Shown piece by piece: positions 5,909 to 47,519 of a DNA stretch of 64,000 bases. The DNA is from Sulfuritalea sp. GTDB lineage: Bacteria; Pseudomonadota; Gammaproteobacteria; Burkholderiales; Rhodocyclaceae. The position numbers and the translations under genes are program-made. Positions within the stretch are counted from its first letter, which is position 1. Each line of letters begins with the position of its first letter. The notes under the pieces were generated by a model. That model was given only the letters and a program-made list of their open reading frames with translations. It did not search any database and was not told the DNA's origin. The DNA is taken from the NCBI GenBank assembly GCA_022842325.1, contig JALHPU010000019.1, forward strand, positions 1 to 64,000, read 5' to 3'.

Positions 5909-7053
5909 TGGTCAGAACCGCGCTCATTCTTGGCGCCGGCATCGGCGGCATCGTTGCGGCCGAAACCCTGCGCAAACTCCTGCCGGCGGAGGATCGCGTC
6001 GTTGTCGTCGAGCGTCAGCGCGACCACATCTTCGCGCCCTCGCTGCTATGGCACATGACCGGTGACAACGATTCCGCAGCATTCACGCGTCCGCTGGCGG
6101 CACTGTCGGCGAAAGGCATCGGGCTGGTCACCGGCGAGATTACCGGCATCGACCCCGCCGCGCTTTCAGTCGAGGTCGGCGGCAAGACCCTGACCGGCGA
6201 CGCGATGATCGTGGCCCTCGGTGCCGACTATGCGCCGGACGCAATTCCGGGGCTTGCCGAGGCCGGACACAATCTCTACACGCTGGCCGGCGCCCAGGGA
6301 ATCCGTGCCGCACTGGATCGCTTCGCGGGCGGCCGCATCGTGGTGCTGACGGCGGCCCCCGTCTACAAATGCCCAGCCGCGCCTTACGAGGCCGCGATGC
6401 TGGTCGATGCTTACTGCAAGAAGCGGAAATCAAGGAATAGCACGGAAGTCGCCATCCATGCCGCCGAGCCGATGCCGATGCCGGTCACCGGTCCTCTGGT
6501 TGGCGGCCAGATAAAGATGATGCTGGAGAAAAAAGGCATTGCCTACTTTCCCGGCCATCAGGTAACAAAGGCGGAAGCCGGCCAACTGCATTTCGCCGAC
6601 GGCGCCACAATCGCCTTCGACCTGTTGCTCTACGTACCGCCGCACCGGGCACCGGCCGTGGTCAAGCAGGCGGGGCTATGCACCGAGTCGGGCTGGATTG
6701 CTGTCAATCGCGAAACAATGGAAACGAGATTTCCCAATGTCTACGCCCTCGGCGATGTCACCTCGATTCCGCTGAAAATGGGCCGGCCCCTGCCCAAGGC
6801 CGGTGTCTTCGCCAACGGCCAGGCGCAAGTCGTGGCGAAGAACCTTGCCCGCGCCTGGACCGGACACGGCGAGGGGGCGCGTTTCGACGGCCACGGCATG
6901 TGCTTCCTAGAAATCGGTGGCGGCATGGCGGGTGTGGGCAGCGGCAACTTCTACGCCGAACCGACGCCCGACGTGCGCATGCGCGGGCCGAATCCCCTGT
7001 GGCATATGGGCAAGATTCTCTACGAGAAGTATTGGTTGTATTCGCGGTTCTGA
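5908..7053 (+). CDS. FAD-dependent sulfide:quinone oxidoreductase-like protein
   Basis: 381 residues of the SQR/flavocytochrome c sulfide dehydrogenase flavoprotein family. The N-terminal dinucleotide fold GAGIGGIVAAE (9-19) binds FAD, a second FAD-contacting motif ALGDVTSIP lies at about 280-288, and an LPKAGVFA segment follows. Two cysteines sit where redox cysteines are expected: Cys155 in YKCPAAPYE and Cys332 in GMCFLEIGGG. The first cysteine of classical three-cysteine SQRs is not evident. The C-terminal amphipathic segment (KILYEKYWLYSRF) could attach it to the membrane. It overlaps the dsrE-like gene. Probable reaction: oxidation of sulfide or a persulfide with electrons to quinone. 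A related NAD(P)H or rhodanese-coupled role cannot be excluded. Confidence 0.82.
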   Translation: MVRTALILGAGIGGIVAAETLRKLLPAEDRVVVVERQRDHIFAPSLLWHMTGDNDSAAFTRPLAALSAKGIGLVTGEITGIDPAALSVEVGGKTLTGDAMIVALGADYAPDAIPGLAEAGHNLYTLAGAQGIRAALDRFAGGRIVVLTAAPVYKCPAAPYEAAMLVDAYCKKRKSRNSTEVAIHAAEPMPMPVTGPLVGGQIKMMLEKKGIAYFPGHQVTKAEAGQLHFADGATIAFDLLLYVPPHRAPAVVKQAGLCTESGWIAVNRETMETRFPNVYALGDVTSIPLKMGRPLPKAGVFANGQAQVVAKNLARAWTGHGEGARFDGHGMCFLEIGGGMAGVGSGNFYAEPTPDVRMRGPNPLWHMGKILYEKYWLYSRF

Positions 7054-19038: not shown

Positions 19039-20421
19039 TCAGGCAAATATTCCGTGCAGGAACCATCCGCCGGGCGCGCGCGGGTCACGGAAAATCCATA
19101 GCCAGCGGCCGGCGCCGTCGATCGCGATGAAGTAGTCGCGGCGCGCATCGCCGCCGTCCCACCAGCCGGACTCGATGCGTTCCGGGCCGACCATTAGTGC
19201 CAACGGGCCGGCCCGTTGCGGACGGCCCTGAACTTCGCGCAAGGCTTCGGGCGGATTCAGCAGCCACAGCGGGCGCGGTGGCAGCGCCGTGCGTAGGGCG
19301 GACTTCAGTCCGCCATCACCGCCATGCCCCGCTAAAGCCGGCCCCGCAGCGATTGCGGCATGCGTACGAACGGCCACGGACTCGCGAACCGGCGCGCCGG
19401 GACCGTCCCGACTCGCCAGCTCCGGTCTATGGTCGGCATGGCAGGCCAAGGCCTGCACCGCCTGCGGCCCCAGGCGCGCGACGAGGCGGTCCATCAGTTC
19501 GGCCAGCGCTTCCTGCCGCTGCCCGCCGCCGTCGAACAGGACATGGCTGCGCGCTTCGCGCGGCACGACCTGTCGTACGCAGAGGCGCAACGCCAGCGCA
19601 GGAGCGGACAGGCTCAGCGCATCCAGCCCTTCCTTGAGTACGCGCGCGATGCGCTCCGCGCTGTGCACCGGCGCGCTGAAAGCGAGCGGCAGCACGGTGA
19701 TCACGCCATGGCCGTGATCGATCCGCCATTCGATCTCGCGCACGGCGCCATTTCGCGCTGCCAGCCAGCCGGCCAGTGCCGCGACCAGGCGGCGCGCGGC
19801 GAACAGCAGCACCGGTGCGACCTCCACCGGCGCCGGCAGTTCCAGGCCCTGCTCGAAACGCTCGGGAAAAACAAAGCCGGTTTGCGGATCGGCGATCTCA
19901 CCCAGGGCACGCGCCAGATCGATCAGGAAGGGTTTGCCGAGGCGGGCACCGAGGCTCGCACGCGGCAGGGCCAGCACGTCGCCGAGGCGGCGCAGGCCGA
20001 AGCCCTCGATACGTCGCGCCAGCGGCGCCGCCAATTGCAGCGCGGTCAGCGGCACGGCGGCGAGTGCCGCGCGCGTCGCCGCCAGGTCCGGACAAATCAC
20101 ATCGTCACCGGCCCGCGCCAGCCACAACGCGGCCAGCGGCGTGGCGGCCACCGCCAGTTGCGCGCGGATGTCCATCGCGGCGAGATCTGCGCGCACCAGG
20201 CGCAACAGCGCCGGCAGGCCGCCGAACAGGCGCAGGCTGCCGCTGATGTCGAGGCGCAGCGCCGCCGGCGCGAGATTGACCTGCGGCGTGAAGCGTCCCG
20301 CCCAGCAGGCCAGCGCCGGGGTGGGAAATGCCGCGGTCGGTGCGACCGCGGCCTCAGGCGGCGACGCGAGTTCGCCGTCGACTGTCGGCCGCGTCGGGCA
20401 GTACAGCGCCAGCCACAGCAT
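19039..20421 (-). CDS. imuB: ImuB, inactive Y-family polymerase-like protein
   Basis: 460 residues. It begins MLWLALYCPT, where active Y-family polymerases carry a catalytic Asp, so it is the non-catalytic ImuB type that bridges DnaE2 to the beta clamp and ImuA. Residues 1-190 are polymerase-like (LRLDISGSLRLFGG, FGLRRLGDVLALPRA) and about 190-330 little-finger-like. The C-terminus (WLWIFRDPRAPGGWFLHGIFA) is the usual ImuB ending. The start overlaps imuA by 68 bases. An in-frame REP doublet encodes GDGGLKSALRT at 19292-19349. The normal next gene, dnaE2, is absent here and lies 16.5 kb further on. Confidence 0.93.
   Translation of the reverse strand: MLWLALYCPTRPTVDGELASPPEAAVAPTAAFPTPALACWAGRFTPQVNLAPAALRLDISGSLRLFGGLPALLRLVRADLAAMDIRAQLAVAATPLAALWLARAGDDVICPDLAATRAALAAVPLTALQLAAPLARRIEGFGLRRLGDVLALPRASLGARLGKPFLIDLARALGEIADPQTGFVFPERFEQGLELPAPVEVAPVLLFAARRLVAALAGWLAARNGAVREIEWRIDHGHGVITVLPLAFSAPVHSAERIARVLKEGLDALSLSAPALALRLCVRQVVPREARSHVLFDGGGQRQEALAELMDRLVARLGPQAVQALACHADHRPELASRDGPGAPVRESVAVRTHAAIAAGPALAGHGGDGGLKSALRTALPPRPLWLLNPPEALREVQGRPQRAGPLALMVGPERIESGWWDGGDARRDYFIAIDGAGRWLWIFRDPRAPGGWFLHGIFA
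19292..19349. repeat. REP-like doublet inside imuB
   Basis: GTAGGGCGGACTTCAGTCC followed by a weaker inverted half ending near GCCGGCCCCGCAG. It keeps the imuB frame and adds a Gly/Ala-rich loop of about 19 residues. Confidence 0.75.
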
Positions 20422-21739: not shown

Positions 21740-21819
21740 TACAGGAAACCGCGACCGCGGTAAAGACCGCCGGCGCATTTCCTGAACCGCGAGGCGGAGG
21801 TTTATAGGATAATTGGGTT

Positions 21820-21993
21820 TGGTCGTCGGGAGAGAGTAACTCCCACCGTTACCGCCGAAGGCGCAACCCCCAGGAACCGCTCAGGCAAAAGGACCGGCGA
21901 CGCAGCACAAATCTGGAGAGCGGCAACCCATGGCAGCATCGCGGGTTGCCCGCCGACGGAGTAAATCTCTCAGGCGCCAAGGACAGATGGGGA
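21820..21993 (+). ncRNA. Tandem glycine riboswitch upstream of gcvT
   Basis: Two glycine aptamers in series. The first runs from CGTCGGGAGAGAGTAACTCC to CGCTCAGGCAAAAGGACCGG. The second runs from CTGGAGAGCGGCAACCC to TCTCTCAGGCGCCAAGGACAG. The GGAGAG...CAGGCAAAAGGAC elements are diagnostic. It lies about 50 bases before gcvT and should switch on glycine cleavage when glycine is plentiful. Confidence 0.95.
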
Positions 21994-40374: not shown

Positions 40375-40917
40375 CTATGCCTCGCCGATCACCACGCGGC
40401 TGTCGCCGTCGAAGCGATACTCGGGGATGACCAGATTGGCCGGCGCCGGTCCCATGCGGAACACCCGCCCGGCCAGGTCGAACTTCGAGGTGTGGCAGGG
40501 GCAAAGGAATTCGCTGCGATTGCCGGCGCTGCGCAACGCCGGCGGGCAGCCCTGGTGGGTGCATTGGCCGATGGCGACGAACAGCTCGGGGCGCAGCGAA
40601 CGATGGGCATTGCGGCAGGCCGGCGGCTGCAGCGAATGTTCCGACATGGGGTCGGTCAGTTCGCTCTCGTAGCCGGCCAGGCCAGCAATCTCGTCGGCGC
40701 TGCGGCGCAGGAGCCAGACCGAACGGCCATGCCAATCCACGGTCAGTAGCTTGCCCGGCACCAGGTCGCCGAAATCCACGGGCAGCGGATTGCCGGCCGG
40801 CGGCTGCGGCCGAGTCACGACATAACGCGCCACGCCCAGACCGACGCCCAGCGCACAGAGGCCGCCCGCCAGATAAAGGCGGCGACGGTCGATGCCGGCG
40901 ATGCGATCTCTGCTCAT
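40375..40917 (-). CDS. Rieske 2Fe-2S protein (ubiquinol-cytochrome c reductase type), orphan
   Basis: 180 residues. N-terminal membrane anchor after RRRLYLAGG, then a Rieske domain with cluster ligands Cys119 and His121 (CTHQGC) and Cys139 and His142 (CPCH), and the disulfide pair Cys124/Cys141. No cytochrome b or c1 gene is adjacent, so it is not part of a petABC operon here. A 3'-truncated second copy is at 43109-43549. Its 5' leader is the start of the cassette array. Confidence 0.9.
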   Translation of the reverse strand: MSRDRIAGIDRRRLYLAGGLCALGVGLGVARYVVTRPQPPAGNPLPVDFGDLVPGKLLTVDWHGRSVWLLRRSADEIAGLAGYESELTDPMSEHSLQPPACRNAHRSLRPELFVAIGQCTHQGCPPALRSAGNRSEFLCPCHTSKFDLAGRVFRMGPAPANLVIPEYRFDGDSRVVIGEA

Positions 40918-41381
40918 GGAGCGTCATTCGAAAGCATGGAGTGACGAACAGCATACCGCGTTCGGCGCGGCGCTTCATGCGGCTATGCCGTTTGGCATAT
41001 TGCCCTTAGCACAATTAAGGTCTATCCTCGCGCAATTCGTTCGGAATATCCGCCGTTGCGCAGGAGGTAAGCCGTGCCAGCAAACGCTGCCGTACCTCGT
41101 CATTTCGCATTCCCCGCAGGCGATACCGCTGCCTCAAACGGGCACGCTCTCCTGGACGCCACCCATCGCAGCAGCCACCGTGAAGAAAGGCGAGGCCAAA
41201 CCGTCGCCACGACCGAAGGTGGCAATTCGTGGCTTGAACCTCAATCATCGAACTGCATCGGAAAATGTCTGGATATGGCGGGAGCGACATATCCATATTT
41301 GGACGTGCCTTCCCATATCTGGATAGAAATGAATGGATATGGAAGTTTTGTAATGACGCCTACTTTACGTTGGGGGGCTTG
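40918..41381. other. Leader between the Rieske gene and the first cassette (attI-like region)
   Basis: About 460 bases without a gene. It ends with several copies of a GGATATGG / CATATCC motif and then TACGTTGGGG (41367-41375), a GTTRRRY-like recombination point. The same layout recurs, diverged, at 43550-44057. I read it as a recombination leader or attI-like site. Confidence 0.5.
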
Positions 41382-41906
41382 ATGCATCTACGCGCCATCG
41401 CAGTGAGTGCCTTCCTGGTGTCATGCAGTATGTCGATGTACGGCGAGGAGACGGGACCTGTTAGCCAAGCGCTTAAGGTCGAACTGAGGGACAAGAAGAC
41501 TAAGGTAGTTGATCTGAAGTCACTAACAACGTTTGAGTGGGATGAGGTTGTCCTGTTCGCTCCGTATGAACCAACTGAAGACGTTTGCCGACGTTTGGCC
41601 TTGAGCGAAACAGACTGCCGATCCACAATCACGGTTGCATCAATTGATGACGGGGAGATGGTGATGGTTTTCCGAAAGAGCGGAAGAATCGTGCATGTTG
41701 AACGCCACCACAGATTCCATGGTGACTTCGAGCCTCGTAAGAAAACACAAACGATTTCGGCCACCTCAGCCATATTCGCTGTCTCCCAGAACGGCCAGTC
41801 TTCTCGTGGAGATGCTTGGCTTGTTCTCGTACCGCTAGCTTCCTATCCACCCCCCAACCCTGCGGTGCAGGGGACGCTGCGCGATAAAGCCGCGCAGCGC
41901 CCCTGA
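41382..41906 (+). CDS. Cassette gene 1: hypothetical lipoprotein
   Basis: 174 residues. Signal with lipobox LVSC (MHLRAIAVSAFLVSCSM). The body is mixed alpha/beta with no motif I recognise. The last 18 or so codons (PNPAVQGTLRDKAAQRP) are supplied by the attC-like site itself, so translation reads into the recombination site, a common trait of cassette genes. Confidence 0.65.
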   Translation: MHLRAIAVSAFLVSCSMSMYGEETGPVSQALKVELRDKKTKVVDLKSLTTFEWDEVVLFAPYEPTEDVCRRLALSETDCRSTITVASIDDGEMVMVFRKSGRIVHVERHHRFHGDFEPRKKTQTISATSAIFAVSQNGQSSRGDAWLVLVPLASYPPPNPAVQGTLRDKAAQRP

Positions 41907-41921
41907 CCTTGAACGTTGAGT
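41852..41921 (+). other. attC-like site 1
   Basis: CCCAAC...GACGCTGCGCG-ATAAAG-CCGCGCAGCG...CTTGAACGTTGAGT. GTTGAGT fits GTTRRRY. Arms AGGGG-A-CGCTGCGCG and CGCGCAGCGCCCCT pair with one extrahelical A. Confidence 0.75.
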
Positions 41922-41980
41922 CTACGCCTTGTCCGTTGGATGATTTCATCTATCCGTAGCCAACCATTATCGGAGGACAT

Positions 41981-43039
41981 ATGAGTAAAGAAGATGGGTT
42001 GAGTCTAGAAGAACGTTTCCACCAGTTAGAGATTGAAATTGCTGAACGGCGCCCGGTCGAGAAGCTTATTCAAATCTTCATCTATTTCTTAGCAGGTCTA
42101 TCGGTCGTAATTGGCTTGTTTGGTATCAAACAATTCTCCGACATCGATACAGTGATCTCGTCGGAAGTAAAGATGCAGTTCCCGAGAGACCAACAGAAAT
42201 ACTTAGAGTACAAAAAGCTTATCGAGGATGCCGAAACCCTAAACGCCCGACACAAGGAACTCTTTGGCAAATACGAGTTGGCTCTAAAGACATTCGCACA
42301 TCTTGACAAAGTCACTGACGACTTTGATCTCGAGGGAAAAGTTTCGAGAGTGATGGAGACTGCGGAAGATGGCGATAGCAAACTTCTAAAGGATGAATCA
42401 TGGCGGTTGCAGGCGGTAGCAACATTGCGGCTTCTCGCAGAAGCACAAAAGAAACGCAACTTTCAAAGCGACTTCATTTTAAATGCTGCACAAACGGCAA
42501 GTCGTCTTCAACAAAATGCTCTCGCCTACGATTTGATGCAGGTCGCATACACCAAGCGTCCCAACGATGCACCAATTCAGGCTGGACGTCTTTCAGCTAT
42601 CGTTGAAATTGGCGATGAAAAGGAAGTTAAGGATGCGTTTGGGTCGCTAATGAATATGGTTGTGAATTTAGATGCGAACTCGCCACATATTGTTCTATCT
42701 GAAGCATGGAACGCAGCAGAACACCTACGGCGATACGATGCGCTAGTAGCGGCAATCGATAAACTGTTAAAGAGCGATCAGCGCCAATTAAAGCCATCGT
42801 ATGCCTATTTCATCAAAGCATTTGCTCTCACTCGTGCATCTCGCCCAGGTGACCTGGCCATTGCACGTTCTACAATGGAGGAGGGCCTAGCACTGTTATC
42901 GAAGGAGTCTCCAAACGCTATTTGGTACGATGCTTCCGTTCGCGAATTGCGCAAGTGCCTAAGAGTATTTGGGGAAGTCAAGCAACAGTCTAAGCTCCGG
43001 CAGCTAAGTAGCCTTGTTTCTTCGCTGGAATCCCAATAG
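41981..43039 (+). CDS. Cassette gene 2: membrane-anchored TPR-like protein
   Basis: 352 residues. A cytoplasmic N-terminus, one membrane span (about 30-50: LIQIFIYFLAGLSVVIGLFGI), then a long helical domain with TPR-like helix pairs from about 140 to 350. GGAGG seven bases before the ATG. Its expected attC is missing; instead a repeat and the truncated Rieske copy follow. Function unknown; a scaffold role is plausible. Confidence 0.65.
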   Translation: MSKEDGLSLEERFHQLEIEIAERRPVEKLIQIFIYFLAGLSVVIGLFGIKQFSDIDTVISSEVKMQFPRDQQKYLEYKKLIEDAETLNARHKELFGKYELALKTFAHLDKVTDDFDLEGKVSRVMETAEDGDSKLLKDESWRLQAVATLRLLAEAQKKRNFQSDFILNAAQTASRLQQNALAYDLMQVAYTKRPNDAPIQAGRLSAIVEIGDEKEVKDAFGSLMNMVVNLDANSPHIVLSEAWNAAEHLRRYDALVAAIDKLLKSDQRQLKPSYAYFIKAFALTRASRPGDLAIARSTMEEGLALLSKESPNAIWYDASVRELRKCLRVFGEVKQQSKLRQLSSLVSSLESQ

Positions 43040-43072
43040 TCATATATCACTTTGTGTCGATACCAGAGCGAT

Positions 43073-43152
43073 AAGGGTCAGAGTCATTTGCCCTATTGAG
43101 GAAGAAGTTCAGATATGCACGCAGGAGAAAAGTGAAATGACTCCGACCCCTT
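43073..43152. repeat. GGGTCAGAGTCATTT-type inverted repeat at the Rieske breakpoint
   Basis: AAGGGTCAGAGTCATTT facing AAATGACTCCGACCCCTT. A relative lies at 57023-57070. Such hairpin ends are typical of REP-associated elements. The truncated Rieske gene begins directly at its right arm. Confidence 0.75.
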
Positions 43153-43549
43153 TGAGTTCGCTGCGCAAAGCGGGCGGGCAGCCCTGGTGGGTGCATTGGC
43201 CGATGGCGACGAACAGCTCGGGGCGCAGCGAGCGATGGGCATTGCGGCAGGCCGGAGGCTGCAGCGAATGCTCCGACATCGGGTCGGTCAGTTCGCTCTC
43301 GTAGCCGGCCAGGCCCGCAATCTCGTCAGCGCTGCGACGCAGGAGCCAGACCGAGCGGCCATGCCAATCCACGGTCAGCAGCTTGCCCGGCACCAGGTCG
43401 CCGAAATCCACGGGCAGCGGATTGCCGGCCGGCGGCTGCGGCCGCGTCACGACATAACGCGCCACGCCCAGACCGACGCCCAGCGCACAGAGGCCGCCCG
43501 CCAGATAAAGGCGGCGACGGTCGATGCCGGCGATGCGATCTTTGCTCAT
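43109..43549 (-). pseudogene. 3'-truncated second copy of the Rieske gene
   Basis: The first 130 residues match the intact copy at 40375-40917 with only one amino-acid change (Lys3 for Arg3), despite about ten nucleotide differences. It keeps CTHQGC but the frame then runs into foreign sequence (ELKGVGVISLFSCVHI), losing the second ligand pair CPCH. It cannot form a normal Rieske cluster. Confidence 0.88.
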
Positions 43550-44057
43550 GGAGCGTCATTCGACAACATGAAGTGACGAACAGCATACCGCGTTCGGCGC
43601 GGCACATTGGGCAGCCCATGGAGTCAAGAGTCGGCGCTGGCGACACGGCGATTCATGCTGCCGTGCTGCACCGCACATTGCCATGGGCATTATTCGGGTC
43701 TATCGTGGCGCCATTCGTTCGGAATATCCGCAGCACAGGAGGTAAGCCATGCCGGCCAACGCCGCCTCATGTCGTCATTCCGCTTTGCCCGCAGGCAATG
43801 TAGCCGCCTCAGGCGAGTTCGCTTTCCAGAGCACCACCCATCGCCCCTGCCGCCATCGAGAAAGATGGAGGCCTGCGATGGCCACGACCCGGGAAGGAAA
43901 TCCGCAGCTAGAACTTCGAACATTGGATCAGAGCGAAAAATGGCTGGATATGGCAAGAGCGGCATGTCCATGCCTGGATGTGAGTTTCCATATCTGGACC
44001 GAAGTACCTAGATCTGGAGATCTTGGAGTGAGGTCTACTTCACGTTGGGCCCCATAG
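43550..44057. other. Second, diverged copy of the Rieske leader (attI-like region)
   Basis: About 500 bases resembling 40918-41381, including CATTCGTTCGGAATATCCG, the GGATATGG/CATATCTGGA motifs and the end CACGTTGGGC (44042-44050). It carries a dispersed VGAGDTA repeat (43624-43653) that the first copy lacks. Confidence 0.6.
43624..43653 (+). repeat. Dispersed VGAGDTA repeat in the second Rieske leader
   Basis: AGTCGGCGCTGGCGACACGG, intergenic. The homologous first leader has no such sequence, which gives an empty-versus-filled comparison. Confidence 0.8.
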
Positions 44058-44558
44058 ATGAACTCTCCTACCGCCTACCATCAACTCGGTCGCTTTATCG
44101 TTGCATTCCAGCATCTTGAAAGCGCCGTCAATGATCTTCTTGAGCTATTGGCCAATACAAAAGACTGCGAGGTCGTTCGCATCCTCGCGCACGACCTTGA
44201 GTACCGCAAACGGCTGAACACAGCAGACGTCTTGTTCGCTAGATTCGTCGATCTACGTAACAACACGGACGCGCTTGCCAAAGGCGAATTCCACAAACTC
44301 ATTGTTGAACTTGGAGATCTTGGCGACCGCCGCAACGACCTAGTTCACTCAGGCTACAACGCTTGGTTGAACGTTGACGGAAAAGAGGGGCTCTTACGCC
44401 GAAACTCGAAGCTCCGTGGCAGCAAGGGGGAACGAGAAGAACACGAAGAAGAATTGCAGCCCGACGCTTTCGATCAAGATCTTCAGCGCCTCGCGGCGGC
44501 CGCCAGTCGCCTTGAGGCCTTTCGTCTCCGAGTGATTGACTGGCGGTATCCTGATTGA
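44058..44558 (+). CDS. Cassette gene 3: HEPN-like protein
   Basis: 166 residues, all helical. LGDRRNDLVHSGY supplies an RX4-6H motif of the HEPN ribonuclease superfamily on a late helix, and the N-terminus is a helix pair. HEPN proteins often act in toxin-antitoxin or antiviral RNA cleavage; catalytic activity here is inferred only from the motif. It starts directly after a GTTGGGC recombination point and is followed by attC-like site 2. Confidence 0.65.
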   Translation: MNSPTAYHQLGRFIVAFQHLESAVNDLLELLANTKDCEVVRILAHDLEYRKRLNTADVLFARFVDLRNNTDALAKGEFHKLIVELGDLGDRRNDLVHSGYNAWLNVDGKEGLLRRNSKLRGSKGEREEHEEELQPDAFDQDLQRLAAAASRLEAFRLRVIDWRYPD

Positions 44559-44566
44559 ATACTGTG

Positions 44567-44654
44567 GCCCAACCCTGCGGTCGACCCCGTTCCCTTCGGT
44601 CACTGGACGCTGCGCGATGAAGCCGCGCAGCGCCGGTCACCTTGAACGTTGGGC
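44567..44654 (+). other. attC-like site 2
   Basis: Perfect ends: GCCCAAC (RYYYAAC) at 44567 and GTTGGGC (GTTRRRY) at 44648. Inner arms GACGCTGCGCG / CGCGCAGCGC with an ATGAAG loop. Best example of the family in this window. Confidence 0.85.
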
Positions 44655-44663
44655 CACAAGCAA

Positions 44664-45332
44664 ATGAGCATCCCCGCCGACAAGGTTTCGTTTGATCTGA
44701 TCCAAAACGCGATCGACTCAATCTCTCGCGCGGTTGAACTGATTGCTTGGAACGAAATGCCAAACGATGGAGCACGTTTGAAGCAAGCCATTCTGAGCAT
44801 TGGTCATGGCGTCGAGTTGCTGCTAAAGGAAAGACTTCGCCAAATTCATCCTGTGCTGATATGGGAAGACGTCGACAGATATCCTAGCCTTGACGCAAGA
44901 ACCGTTGGAGTCGATAAAGCAATTCATCGCCTTCGCCAAATTGGTGCTATCCAACTTAGCGACGAAGATGCCGCGCTCGTCAAATCGCTACGCAATACAC
45001 GAAATGCCATCGAACACTTTTCTTGGACCACAACACGACAAGAAGCAAACGCGATTGTTGGTAAGGCCTTGAGCTTCGCCATCGCGTTTGCCCAAACGCA
45101 CTTAGGCGTCGACATTGCTTTTGCATACAAACGCGATGACACATGGCAGCAGCTTTTAACGACTCACTACGATTTCGCGAAGGCACATACCGCGCGTCAT
45201 GAGGCAGCATTGAGAGCCACAAACGAGTATTTCGTGGCTTGCGAGTTTTGTGGGGCGCTTGCGGTGAGCCCGTCCGGTGGCTCCTGCACACTTTGTGGGC
45301 ATTGGAATGACATTCCCGACGAACCGTTCTAG
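44664..45332 (+). CDS. Cassette gene 4: HEPN-like protein with C-terminal zinc ribbon
   Basis: 222 residues. A helical HEPN-like domain (about 1-175) with SLRNTRNAIEHF (RX4H) on a central helix. The last 30 residues form a zinc ribbon, CEFCG...CTLCGHW. No enzyme family named. The second of two neighbouring cassettes with a HEPN motif. Flanked by attC-like sites 2 and 3, so a complete single-gene cassette. Confidence 0.7.
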   Translation: MSIPADKVSFDLIQNAIDSISRAVELIAWNEMPNDGARLKQAILSIGHGVELLLKERLRQIHPVLIWEDVDRYPSLDARTVGVDKAIHRLRQIGAIQLSDEDAALVKSLRNTRNAIEHFSWTTTRQEANAIVGKALSFAIAFAQTHLGVDIAFAYKRDDTWQQLLTTHYDFAKAHTARHEAALRATNEYFVACEFCGALAVSPSGGSCTLCGHWNDIPDEPF

Positions 45333-45354
45333 TTGCGTACGGAGGCAGCATGTG

Positions 45355-45425
45355 GCCCAACCCATCCATCAACGCGGACGCTGCGCGATGAAGCCGCGCA
45401 GCGTCGGTTATGTCAAACGTTAGCC
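45355..45425 (+). other. attC-like site 3
   Basis: GCCCAAC at 45355 and GTTAGCC at 45419, with inner arms GGACGCTGCGCG / CGCGCAGCGTC around ATGAAG. Near-consensus ends. Confidence 0.8.
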
Positions 45426-45461
45426 CTCATTAGAACCTATTCCAGCAAAGGAAGAATCGTC

Positions 45462-45785
45462 ATGCCGATTGTGTTCATGCCCACACTCAAATTCTACTTA
45501 TTGGTTGCAGCACTGGCGACCGCTAGCGCTGCTTTCGCGCAGTCGCAGGTTCCATACAATTTTAAGGATGGGAAGAAGGGATTTGACTCTACGCGCGAGA
45601 AACGAGGCGAGTATTTACTTTCGACTCCAATGGTTATGCAAGGGCCGGGCAAACTAGATACCTCGAAGTGGCCTCCAGATTCAGCTGATACAGAAGCACT
45701 TCTTCGGACAAGAATTGATCTTCTTGAGAGGAAACTAGAGCTTCTTGAAAAGCGATTAATTGAAGTTGAATCGAGGAAGAAATAA
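45462..45785 (+). CDS. Cassette gene 5a: small exported coiled-coil protein
   Basis: 107 residues. Signal peptide (MPIVFMPTLKFYLLVAALATASAAFAQ) and a C-terminal coiled coil rich in Leu/Glu/Lys (LLRTRIDLLERKLELLEKRLIEVE). First of four genes with no complete attC between them. Its stop overlaps the next ATG by one base. Confidence 0.65.
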   Translation: MPIVFMPTLKFYLLVAALATASAAFAQSQVPYNFKDGKKGFDSTREKRGEYLLSTPMVMQGPGKLDTSKWPPDSADTEALLRTRIDLLERKLELLEKRLIEVESRKK

Positions 45786-46207
45786 TGGCCACCTCTACTG
45801 CAATTCAAGAGACAGAGACGGTCAATGCCAAATTACAGGTCGTGCGAGAACAAACTCAGAAGGCTGCCGAAGCTGCATCAACGTCGACAGGCAAGGCTGA
45901 AGTGTCCTATGGCAAACAGTGGTGGCGAGCCGACGAAGCGATGACGATAAGCGCGACGGTTCTGGTCTTCGGTGTACTTGTCATGGTACTTATGACCGTT
46001 GTGCTTCGGAAGTCGAACATACAACCTGACGCCGTCCTCCGCCTGTTTGGCACAACCATAATCATAATTGGCGCGCTATTCCTCATCGTCGCCGGCTATA
46101 CCGAAACGCAAATGGGTCCGGTGATGGGCCTGCTCGGAACTATCGCCGGCTATCTGCTGGGAAAGAATTCGAACACCACCGGGACCGGGGGCAAGAGTGA
46201 CGTTTAA
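45785..46207 (+). CDS. Cassette gene 5b: small integral membrane protein
   Basis: 140 residues. A charged N-terminal helix (about 1-45) precedes three hydrophobic spans (about 55-75, 88-105, 112-126). No recognised family. Translationally coupled to 5a. Confidence 0.65.
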   Translation: MATSTAIQETETVNAKLQVVREQTQKAAEAASTSTGKAEVSYGKQWWRADEAMTISATVLVFGVLVMVLMTVVLRKSNIQPDAVLRLFGTTIIIIGALFLIVAGYTETQMGPVMGLLGTIAGYLLGKNSNTTGTGGKSDV

Positions 46208-46214
46208 GTTGAAC

Positions 46215-46221
46215 GTTGGCC
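46215..46221 (+). other. Degenerate recombination point inside the four-gene cassette
   Basis: TTGAACGTTGGCC has the same right-hand end as attC-like sites 1 and 2 (TTGAACGTTG), but no hairpin precedes it. It may be the scar of a lost attC. Confidence 0.4.
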
Positions 46222-46273
46222 AAGATTTGTTGGCGTGCTCACTTACACAGTGCCTAGAGAAAGGGGATTGGTT

Positions 46274-46867
46274 ATGAAGAACCTATATTTGGTTATCGCG
46301 ATAGTCTTTATGGTTGGGACCGGTGGTTGCGCATCGGTACCTCCAGAATCGGTAACCTTGAGCAGCGAGGTGGGGGCCGGAATAAAGAAGCAGCATCAAG
46401 CCCAAGTTAGCTTTCTAAATTTGTATTTCGAAGCAAAGCGGAAGGATCTTGATACCGCCTTTCAGCGTGCCTTGAATACGTATTTTTCGACGATTGCACC
46501 TTCTGGTTCAGTAACCCTAACAAAGGCACAGCTGGACGAAATTGCCAAAGACGTCCTCGATCTAAGTGAAAAGAACGCCAAGGCGAAGGAGTCACTTGAA
46601 AAGGTGCGAGTCGATCTCCTCGTTAAGCTCGACGAGAATTACCAGACTCTAAATCAGGCTAACTCAACGGTTACTGGGCTACTCCAGTCGGTGGTTTCCG
46701 CTAAGGAAGCCGCTAGTAAGTCGATGCAATTGATCTCCACTGCGACGGATGGACGCATTCAACTTGACAAGGTTTTTGCGGAGATAGATTCGTTTGTGGT
46801 AAAGGGCGGTTCCGAAGCTGGAAAAGCCATCGATCTGATCGAGAAGGTCAGGAACATTGCGAAATAA
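46274..46867 (+). CDS. Cassette gene 5c: helical lipoprotein
   Basis: 197 residues. Lipobox GTGGC (Cys near residue 18). The mature part is long amphipathic helix throughout, suggesting a periplasmic coiled coil. GGGG seven bases before the ATG. No family recognised. Confidence 0.7.
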   Translation: MKNLYLVIAIVFMVGTGGCASVPPESVTLSSEVGAGIKKQHQAQVSFLNLYFEAKRKDLDTAFQRALNTYFSTIAPSGSVTLTKAQLDEIAKDVLDLSEKNAKAKESLEKVRVDLLVKLDENYQTLNQANSTVTGLLQSVVSAKEAASKSMQLISTATDGRIQLDKVFAEIDSFVVKGGSEAGKAIDLIEKVRNIAK

Positions 46868-46886
46868 CGGGGAAAAGGAGATTCGA

Positions 46887-47156
46887 ATGGACAACGCTGA
46901 ATGGGTGGCGCTTCGCGCAAAGGCCAATCAGTTAGCTAATGATCAGTTTGCGACAGAGGCATCGGACATTGCCGCCCTTACAAAGAAGCAGGTGTCGGAA
47001 ATCATTGCCGAATCGGGCGTAAATATAGAAACTCTAGCCAATCTAATGGCTACGGTGAGCGACGCCACGAAGACCAATCAGCAGAAAGCGCAAGCCCTAC
47101 GAAACATCAGTGGGTTTGCGGAGGTCGCTGTCTCTCTGATAGGTAAATTGGCCTAA
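46887..47156 (+). CDS. Cassette gene 5d: small helical protein
   Basis: 89 residues, all helical, no signal. Its TAA stop lies within the left end (GCCTAAC) of attC-like site 4. Probably co-transcribed with 5c (19-base gap, AAAAGGAG upstream of the ATG). Function unknown. Confidence 0.6.
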   Translation: MDNAEWVALRAKANQLANDQFATEASDIAALTKKQVSEIIAESGVNIETLANLMATVSDATKTNQQKAQALRNISGFAEVAVSLIGKLA

Positions 47157-47217
47157 CCCATCATCGCACCGGACCTGCGCGAATAGCCGCGCAGGCCGGT
47201 GAATTCACACGTTGAAT
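47151..47217 (+). other. attC-like site 4
   Basis: GCCTAAC (RYYYAAC) at 47151 and GTTGAAT (GTTRRRY) at 47211. Arms CACCGG-A-CCTGCGCG / CGCGCAGGCCGGTG pair with a single extrahelical A. Marks the right end of the array. Confidence 0.85.
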
Positions 47218-47519
47218 CTGTAGAAAATCCCCTTTTCACGCGGCAATGACCCACTCGAAGGGCGCGATTTTCATCGCGCCATTTGTCATTTCACTGTCGG
47301 GTTTGCCAAGGCATCGTGTCGCCAGCTCGATCTTCTGCGCCTCAGGCAAGAGTCGGCGCTGGCGACACGGCGCCTTTTGATCCGTGCGACGCAAATACCG
47401 GGCGGGTAGACGCTGGATTGCCAAGTACGTATTCTGAACGGCCGGAACGATCCGGTTGCACTGGCCATGGCCGGACGGCCGGCTCCGGAGCCGGACAGCA
47501 ATCCGCAAAGGAGCGAACC
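47218..47519. other. Non-coding gap to the right of the cassette array
   Basis: GC content returns to the core level. Holds one dispersed VGAGDTA repeat (47345-47372) and no convincing gene. Confidence 0.5.
47345..47372 (+). repeat. Dispersed VGAGDTA repeat, intergenic
   Basis: AGTCGGCGCTGGCGACACGG, the full consensus. Confidence 0.8.

Follow-up and report, generated by a model that had tools for sequence, protein, structure and literature searches.

The window analyzed here is the 64,000-nucleotide stretch at positions 1 to 64,000 of contig JALHPU010000019.1 from Sulfuritalea sp. (GCA_022842325.1), which carries, between 41369 and 47217, an integron cassette array with four attC recombination sites and no integrase gene. 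Our analysis indicates that this array was probably loaded on two integrase-less platforms, each combining a promoter with an attI-like site and here called heads, that are served by an integrase (IntI) encoded elsewhere in the genome. The contig (C19) is 86 kb long and belongs to a 4.89-Mb assembly of 121 contigs, for which 99.94% completeness and 5.15% contamination are given. The original prediction described the array as a cluster of attC sites lacking integrases (CALIN) on a betaproteobacterial chromosome. The host assignment was borne out (Rhodocyclales, Sulfuritalea type); the relatives, in named records, of the Rieske protein encoded beside the array are from Rhodocyclaceae or Sulfuritalea, with best matches of 82 to 89% (33 loci). 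The CALIN label is correct as a label and incomplete as a description: it misses the platform part because the array starts at attI-like heads, which recur as array starts across the family.

A Rieske [2Fe-2S] host gene (40375 to 40917, minus strand; Pfam Rieske, E value 5.9e-9) forms the left border of the array. Its adjacency to a gene at 48.4 kb is conserved in relatives, and nothing lies between the two in genome G012. Head 1, on the plus strand, consists of a sigma-70-like promoter element with the pattern TTGCC-N18-TATNNT (41000 to 41028; pattern match), the relic of a small DUF5710-like gene with an internal deletion (41029 to 41263; aligned against the intact G010 copy), a leader (41264 to 41368; 102.9 bits with sequence model R1), and the core of attI-like site 1, GTTGGGG (41369 to 41375). 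The array start given in the original prediction, 41369, is exactly the G of this first core GTT. A second head, absent from that prediction, lies inside the array, where the segment 40527 to 41374 is repeated at 43159 to 44049 with 81% identity. It comprises, on the same strand, a promoter-like element (43678 to 43706; general promoter scan and pattern match), a small-gene relic with the deletion seen in head 1 (43707 to 43938; alignment), a leader (43939 to 44043; R1, 95.3 bits), and the core of attI-like site 2, GTTGGGC (44044 to 44050). The leader, defined as the last 105 bases before the core, contains four CCATATCTGG-type repeats about 20 to 23 bp apart, which in head 1 start at 41269, 41292, 41313, and 41333. 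Both heads terminate in the core ACGTTGGG, where a cassette starts. Head 2 fits the attI core GTTRRRY, and head 1 deviates from it at the last base only; the other mark of an attI, a position beside intI, is lacking in the window. The promoter-like pattern has two matches in the window, both in the heads, with 0.11 expected; it also marks the left edge of other heads.

The attC sites were evaluated with a covariance model (R2) trained on 15 attC sites from the same genome, none of them from the window. The model rejected none of the four sites of the original prediction and recovered them all on the plus-strand array: attC 1 at 41852 to 41921 (E value 5.6e-23; bottom strand), attC 2 at 44567 to 44654 (3e-27), attC 3 at 45355 to 45425 (1.1e-26), and attC 4, the last of the array, at 47151 to 47217 (1.8e-13). 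Four further matches were listed up to an E value of 1; three are weaker opposite-strand matches at sites 1 to 3, and the remaining one (0.56) lies at 19524 to 19590. The bottom strands of sites 1 to 4 fold better than shuffled sequences (z of -6.3, -3.2, -2.3, and -4.5, respectively). Sites 1 to 3 fold into an R stem and an L stem with unpaired single bases within the L arm, and the minimum-energy fold of attC 4 lacks the R stem. The cassette stretches have a G+C content of 0.46 to 0.56, compared with 0.63 for the window. Where a CALIN takes at least two attC sites close together, four lie here within 5.4 kb. No IntI match was found anywhere on C19, and the window thus holds no complete integron of intI, attI, and attC together. 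These results agree with an array of one attC lineage that has no integrase nearby, as originally proposed. Applied genome wide (E value 0.01), R2 gave 31 attC matches spread over ten contigs. C19 holds 14, of which 4 are in the window and 10 at 80.8 to 85.8 kb; C1 and C28 have 4 apiece, C2 and C15 have 2 apiece, and C27, C58, C62, C84, and C116 have a single match each.

The doubling of the head was examined by comparison with the relative G011. Leader copy 1 is 83.5% identical to the leader of G011 and 74.8% identical to leader copy 2, while the two Rieske segments, the second being a truncated copy at 43159 to 43549 (minus strand), are 96.7% identical to each other and 84% identical to that of G011. 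Because leader copy 1 is nearer to G011 than to copy 2 and the Rieske copies are nearly alike, the duplication of the leader appears to predate the divergence from G011, and the Rieske part seems to have been evened out later. The left junction of the repeat is a 94-bp element with GGGTCAGAGTCATTT-type inverted ends (43065 to 43158), which has an 85% match in locus L136 of G011 (6334 to 6427), where the same element precedes the remnant (end) of a second, cut leader. The internal deletion in the small gene is also common to head 1, head 2, and G011, and the first leader of G011 has lost its core.

Heads of this kind are not confined to the window and G011. A search with R1 in 297 genomes of the family (68 genera) found the leader in 21 genomes from 11 genera, mostly far from intI; heads in G013, which is outside the 297-genome draw, and in G024 were additionally found by BLAST. 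Of the 21 leader genomes, nine carry heads at two separate places, with coinciding matches on opposite strands counted as one, and G013 has three. An order-wide search (E value 1e-4) found the leader in 3 of 399 genomes, all in the family of the window; the family mix of that draw is partly visible from 23 listed rows. Across heads of many genera, about 118 positions ending at the core are conserved. In an alignment (A4) of 25 of 34 heads, from which weaker or cut heads were removed by hand, GTT is present in 25 of 25, a figure that is partly a matter of choice because the heads were hand selected; among those not in A4, the core is gone in G011 and others. A promoter-like element occurs within 800 bases upstream of 14 of 33 heads (the count leaves out locus L192); its rate across these loci is otherwise 0.02 per 800 bases. 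The distance from promoter to core is 551 to 629 bases in heads with the small gene and 209 to 372 bases in other heads, in which the gene is reduced or gone. The promoter-like element and the site thus appear to outlast the small gene. That gene has 11 matches in 10 of the 297 genomes, 8 of them directly before a head, 1 before a cut leader, and 2 elsewhere. Examined for purifying selection, it shows a pairwise ratio of nonsynonymous to synonymous substitution rates (dN/dS) of 0.16 to 0.65 among 10 copies, a rough estimate, as several open reading frame (ORF) starts are overextended and many dS values exceed 1.

Among the 300 pairs of the 25 aligned heads, 40 reach an identity of 70% or more in the 60 bases that precede GTT; in the 400 bases after GTT, blastn (E value 1e-3) gives no match for any of these 40. 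The 40 include same-genome pairs from G158 (97%), G013 (95%), G056 (87%), G179 (75%), and the window (70%). On sequence grounds, this stop at GTT is the trace expected of different cassettes inserted at one point. Among 32 fetched head loci, attC sites were found in 19. All 59 of these sites are located behind the core and have the expected orientation, a count that leaves out three opposite-strand matches at counted places (L187 406, L141 1366, and L140 6545); no attC was found in 115 kb on the non-core side. From these patterns we infer that IntI recombines head cores with attC.

A different explanation could be that the leader serves in regulation or protein binding and lies before arrays by chance, and that the cassettes entered secondary, attG-type sites, which need a core only. 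The repeats are indeed evenly spaced and palindrome-like, as in operators, the leader shows no conserved single-strand fold (-2.8 kcal/mol; double changes in 2 of 9 pairs), and attG insertions have been described (PMC12444791 and PMC12901181, as far as the available text goes). However, attG-type sites would not be conserved beyond the core, and those reported in the accessible part of PMC12444791 are scattered over many loci, whereas about 118 bp are conserved here up to the core in many genera. Moreover, in one genus the leader takes the place of attI beside intI. We regard this explanation as quite improbable.

The integrases of the genome were then considered. The original prediction had called for a search for intI elsewhere; none is at the array, and two IntI genes score over the curated cut-off on other contigs, C84 (473 bits) and C62 (358 bits), each with attC nearby. 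The heads and the primary attI belonging to the C84 IntI share their last bases, CGTCGACTTCACGTTAGG. In a comparison of attI cores at 18 intI loci, the best GTT site ranked in the top 0.05 to 4.6% of 1,826 GTT sites; this comparison uses the best-placed of several sites at each locus, and at some loci it is weak. By eye, a tandem repeat of about 110 bp also lies just behind the C84 intI (C84:2290-2510; L024). In G052 and G113, which belong to one genus, a leftward intI is followed by the rightward small gene, the leader, and the GTT core, and because of this gene order the leader can occupy the position of attI beside intI. IntI over the cut-off is present in 21 of 23 head genomes; within the sampled family it is present in 19 of 21 head genomes versus 157 of 276 others (Fisher P = 0.002).

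The arrays might instead be fossils, each head being what remained after deletion of a once-adjacent intI. CALINs are described in this way in the available text of PMC9024848, and the juxtaposition of intI and head in G052 and G113, together with an old double head common to G011 and the Sulfuritalea genome (G000), would suit such decay. A second array on C19, at 80.8 kb, starts at an apparent primary-type attI recognized by eye (C19:80010-80150; L065 6010-6150) and is without intI similarity across the 24 kb retrieved there (L064 and L065); that array looks like a decayed integron. As an account of the heads, however, decay seems unlikely to us. Similarity to intI (E value 1e-3) adjoins the head in only 2 of the 32 fetched loci, those of G052 and G113, and heads retain their core while the adjacent cassettes differ. 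In addition, a unit that begins just ahead of the promoter and runs to GTT occurs in G013 on both C56 and C77 (95.5% identity over 576 bp) with different neighbors.

A further possibility is that the heads are integron satellites: units of about 580 bp (promoter, small gene, and attI-like leader) that are copied into new locations without an integrase and use the host IntI in trans. The edges of the G013 unit coincide within a few bases with those of its match to G010, and the flanks of the C56 and C77 copies differ. Comparing the upstream flanks of nine heads pairwise revealed a shared flank in one pair, G010-G056, which speaks for an inherited place, and opposes free movement, in that pair. 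On the satellite interpretation the small gene would be dispensable and the promoter and site retained, and one integrase would serve several separately promoted arrays. We offer it tentatively, as a possibility that we rate somewhat below even.

A trivial explanation could be that the heads continue into intI on another contig and only appear isolated in the assembly. Repeats do terminate many of the array contigs in this genome, and the listed contamination has been given above. The heads of the window, however, are internal to the 86-kb contig C19, where the Rieske gene flanks them at the left, and they occupy the same place in G011. For G111, a single contig whose two heads are separated from the closest IntI by 369 and 924 kb (the second without its core), an artefact is ruled out unless that assembly is wrong. 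We consider this explanation extremely unlikely.

Several observations weigh against platforms served from elsewhere. The full leader is absent at 52 of 54 intI loci examined, where a similar core follows other DNA; with the head beside only 2 of 54, the usual attI of these integrases is another sequence upstream of the core. Two of the 23 head genomes lack an IntI over the cut-off, and IntI is common family-wide (176 of 297 genomes). Thirteen of the 32 fetched head loci have no attC at an E value of 0.01; five of these have at most 763 bases downstream, and eight have 2.7 to 8.7 kb. The promoter-like pattern was defined after inspection of the heads, and we count this post hoc choice as a further objection; a general promoter scan gave 4 promoter-like sites versus 4.2 in shuffled sequences, no excess, and did not list the element of head 1. 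Finally, no recent cassette exchange was seen in the window.

With these objections in mind, we still favor heads as platforms served from elsewhere and propose that each supplies a promoter and a double-stranded attI-like site, in which the repeat leader would precede a core that joins cassettes at GTT. IntI encoded elsewhere in the genome would recognize the head core and insert circular cassettes via the folded bottom strand of attC. The joining of cassettes by IntI is established for integrons, and this step draws on that knowledge as well as on the sequence pattern. The head promoter would transcribe into the first cassettes, and the tandem double head would create two first positions in one array. 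Both the action of IntI in trans and a working head promoter are predictions from sequence. If correct, the heads would be natural attI-like sites of a new type that let one integrase maintain several expressed first positions, and they would explain the persistence of attC clusters far from intI.

Cassette 1 carries an ORF of 174 amino acids (41382 to 41906, plus strand, as are all those that follow) without a Pfam (E value 0.1), NCBIfam, or PADLOC (E value 0.01) family. None was found in the same databases for an ORF of 352 amino acids that follows attC 1, with no separate attC between it and head 2 (41981 to 43039), or for a cassette ORF of 166 amino acids (44058 to 44558). The cassette ORF at 44649 to 45332 matches a phage defense candidate family (PADLOC PDC-S64, E value 1.5e-26) and DUF3644 (5.8e-10). 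Four ORFs lie between attC 3 and attC 4 (45462 to 45785, 45785 to 46207, 46274 to 46867, and 46887 to 47156), and a decayed half attC seen by eye at 46206 to 46221, a half site that R2 does not detect, suggests that cassettes have fused there. For the cassette ORFs, Pfam gave only weak matches and NCBIfam one, all below the cut-off, and besides the 44649 to 45332 ORF none has a family match above the cut-offs. Rfam at gathering scores found nothing within the array; elsewhere in the window it identified a glycine riboswitch (21817 to 21906). The right edge of the array (47216 to 47290) resembles insertion sequence ends found at other array edges of the genome. Seven edges have the GAAKCTGTAGAAAA form (47216 to 47230, C19:85808, C27:164, C28:101, C58:23280, C1:181037, and C14:12068); all seven are directly at GTT, and six are at attC arrays or the window edge. 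They resemble the left and right termini of a single insertion sequence that enters attC sites, and the peptide at the left ends is probably of IS1182 type. The idea that arrays are inserted in the loop of a dispersed hairpin was dropped, the edge GAAGCTGTAGAAAA belonging to two different flanks that resemble the termini of a single such element. At 43622 to 43651, 47344 to 47372, and other places there is a dispersed repeat around AGTCGGCGCTGGCGACACGGCG, with 41 short matches listed in the genome.

In the available text of PMC9024848 and PMC8618304, CALINs are attributed to integron degradation, off-target insertion, or rearrangement, and in Xanthomonas they occupy fixed loci (PMC12444791, likewise in part). 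Beside these usual accounts of decay or stray insertion, a conserved head would offer a third route, that of promoter-bearing landing sites served from elsewhere. Text searches covering open-licence papers found no family of integrase-less attI heads. As in a CALIN, the attC sites of the window array are several and belong to a single lineage, intI is absent from the vicinity, and IntI is encoded elsewhere in the genome; unlike a CALIN, the array starts with a conserved promoter-plus-attI-like head that is doubled and recurs across the family. With the sedentary chromosomal integrons of Xanthomonas, Vibrio, and Shewanella it shares a promoter-like element, an attI-like core, and lineage-specific attC sites, but it is without a local intI, and its leader is unlike the attI found next to most of the intI genes examined. 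The nearest single case is the CALIN of Shewanella prophage M16-3, an intI-less array headed by an attI with a complete integron in the same record (PMC9892861). According to the accessible part of that report, its attI is the same as that of its integron, whereas the heads here have a separate leader type that is family-wide and present in several copies per genome, as well as their own promoter-like element and small gene. The attI duplications of class 1 integrons are similar in that a second or partial attI within an array can recombine; as presented in the available portion of PMC12901181, they occur in mobile integrons with intI and act as the far end of a cassette, whereas each head here starts an array. 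Insertion at attG sites would likewise put cassettes away from intI, but the available portions of PMC12444791 and PMC12901181 describe no conserved 100-bp leader at such sites, in contrast to the heads described here.

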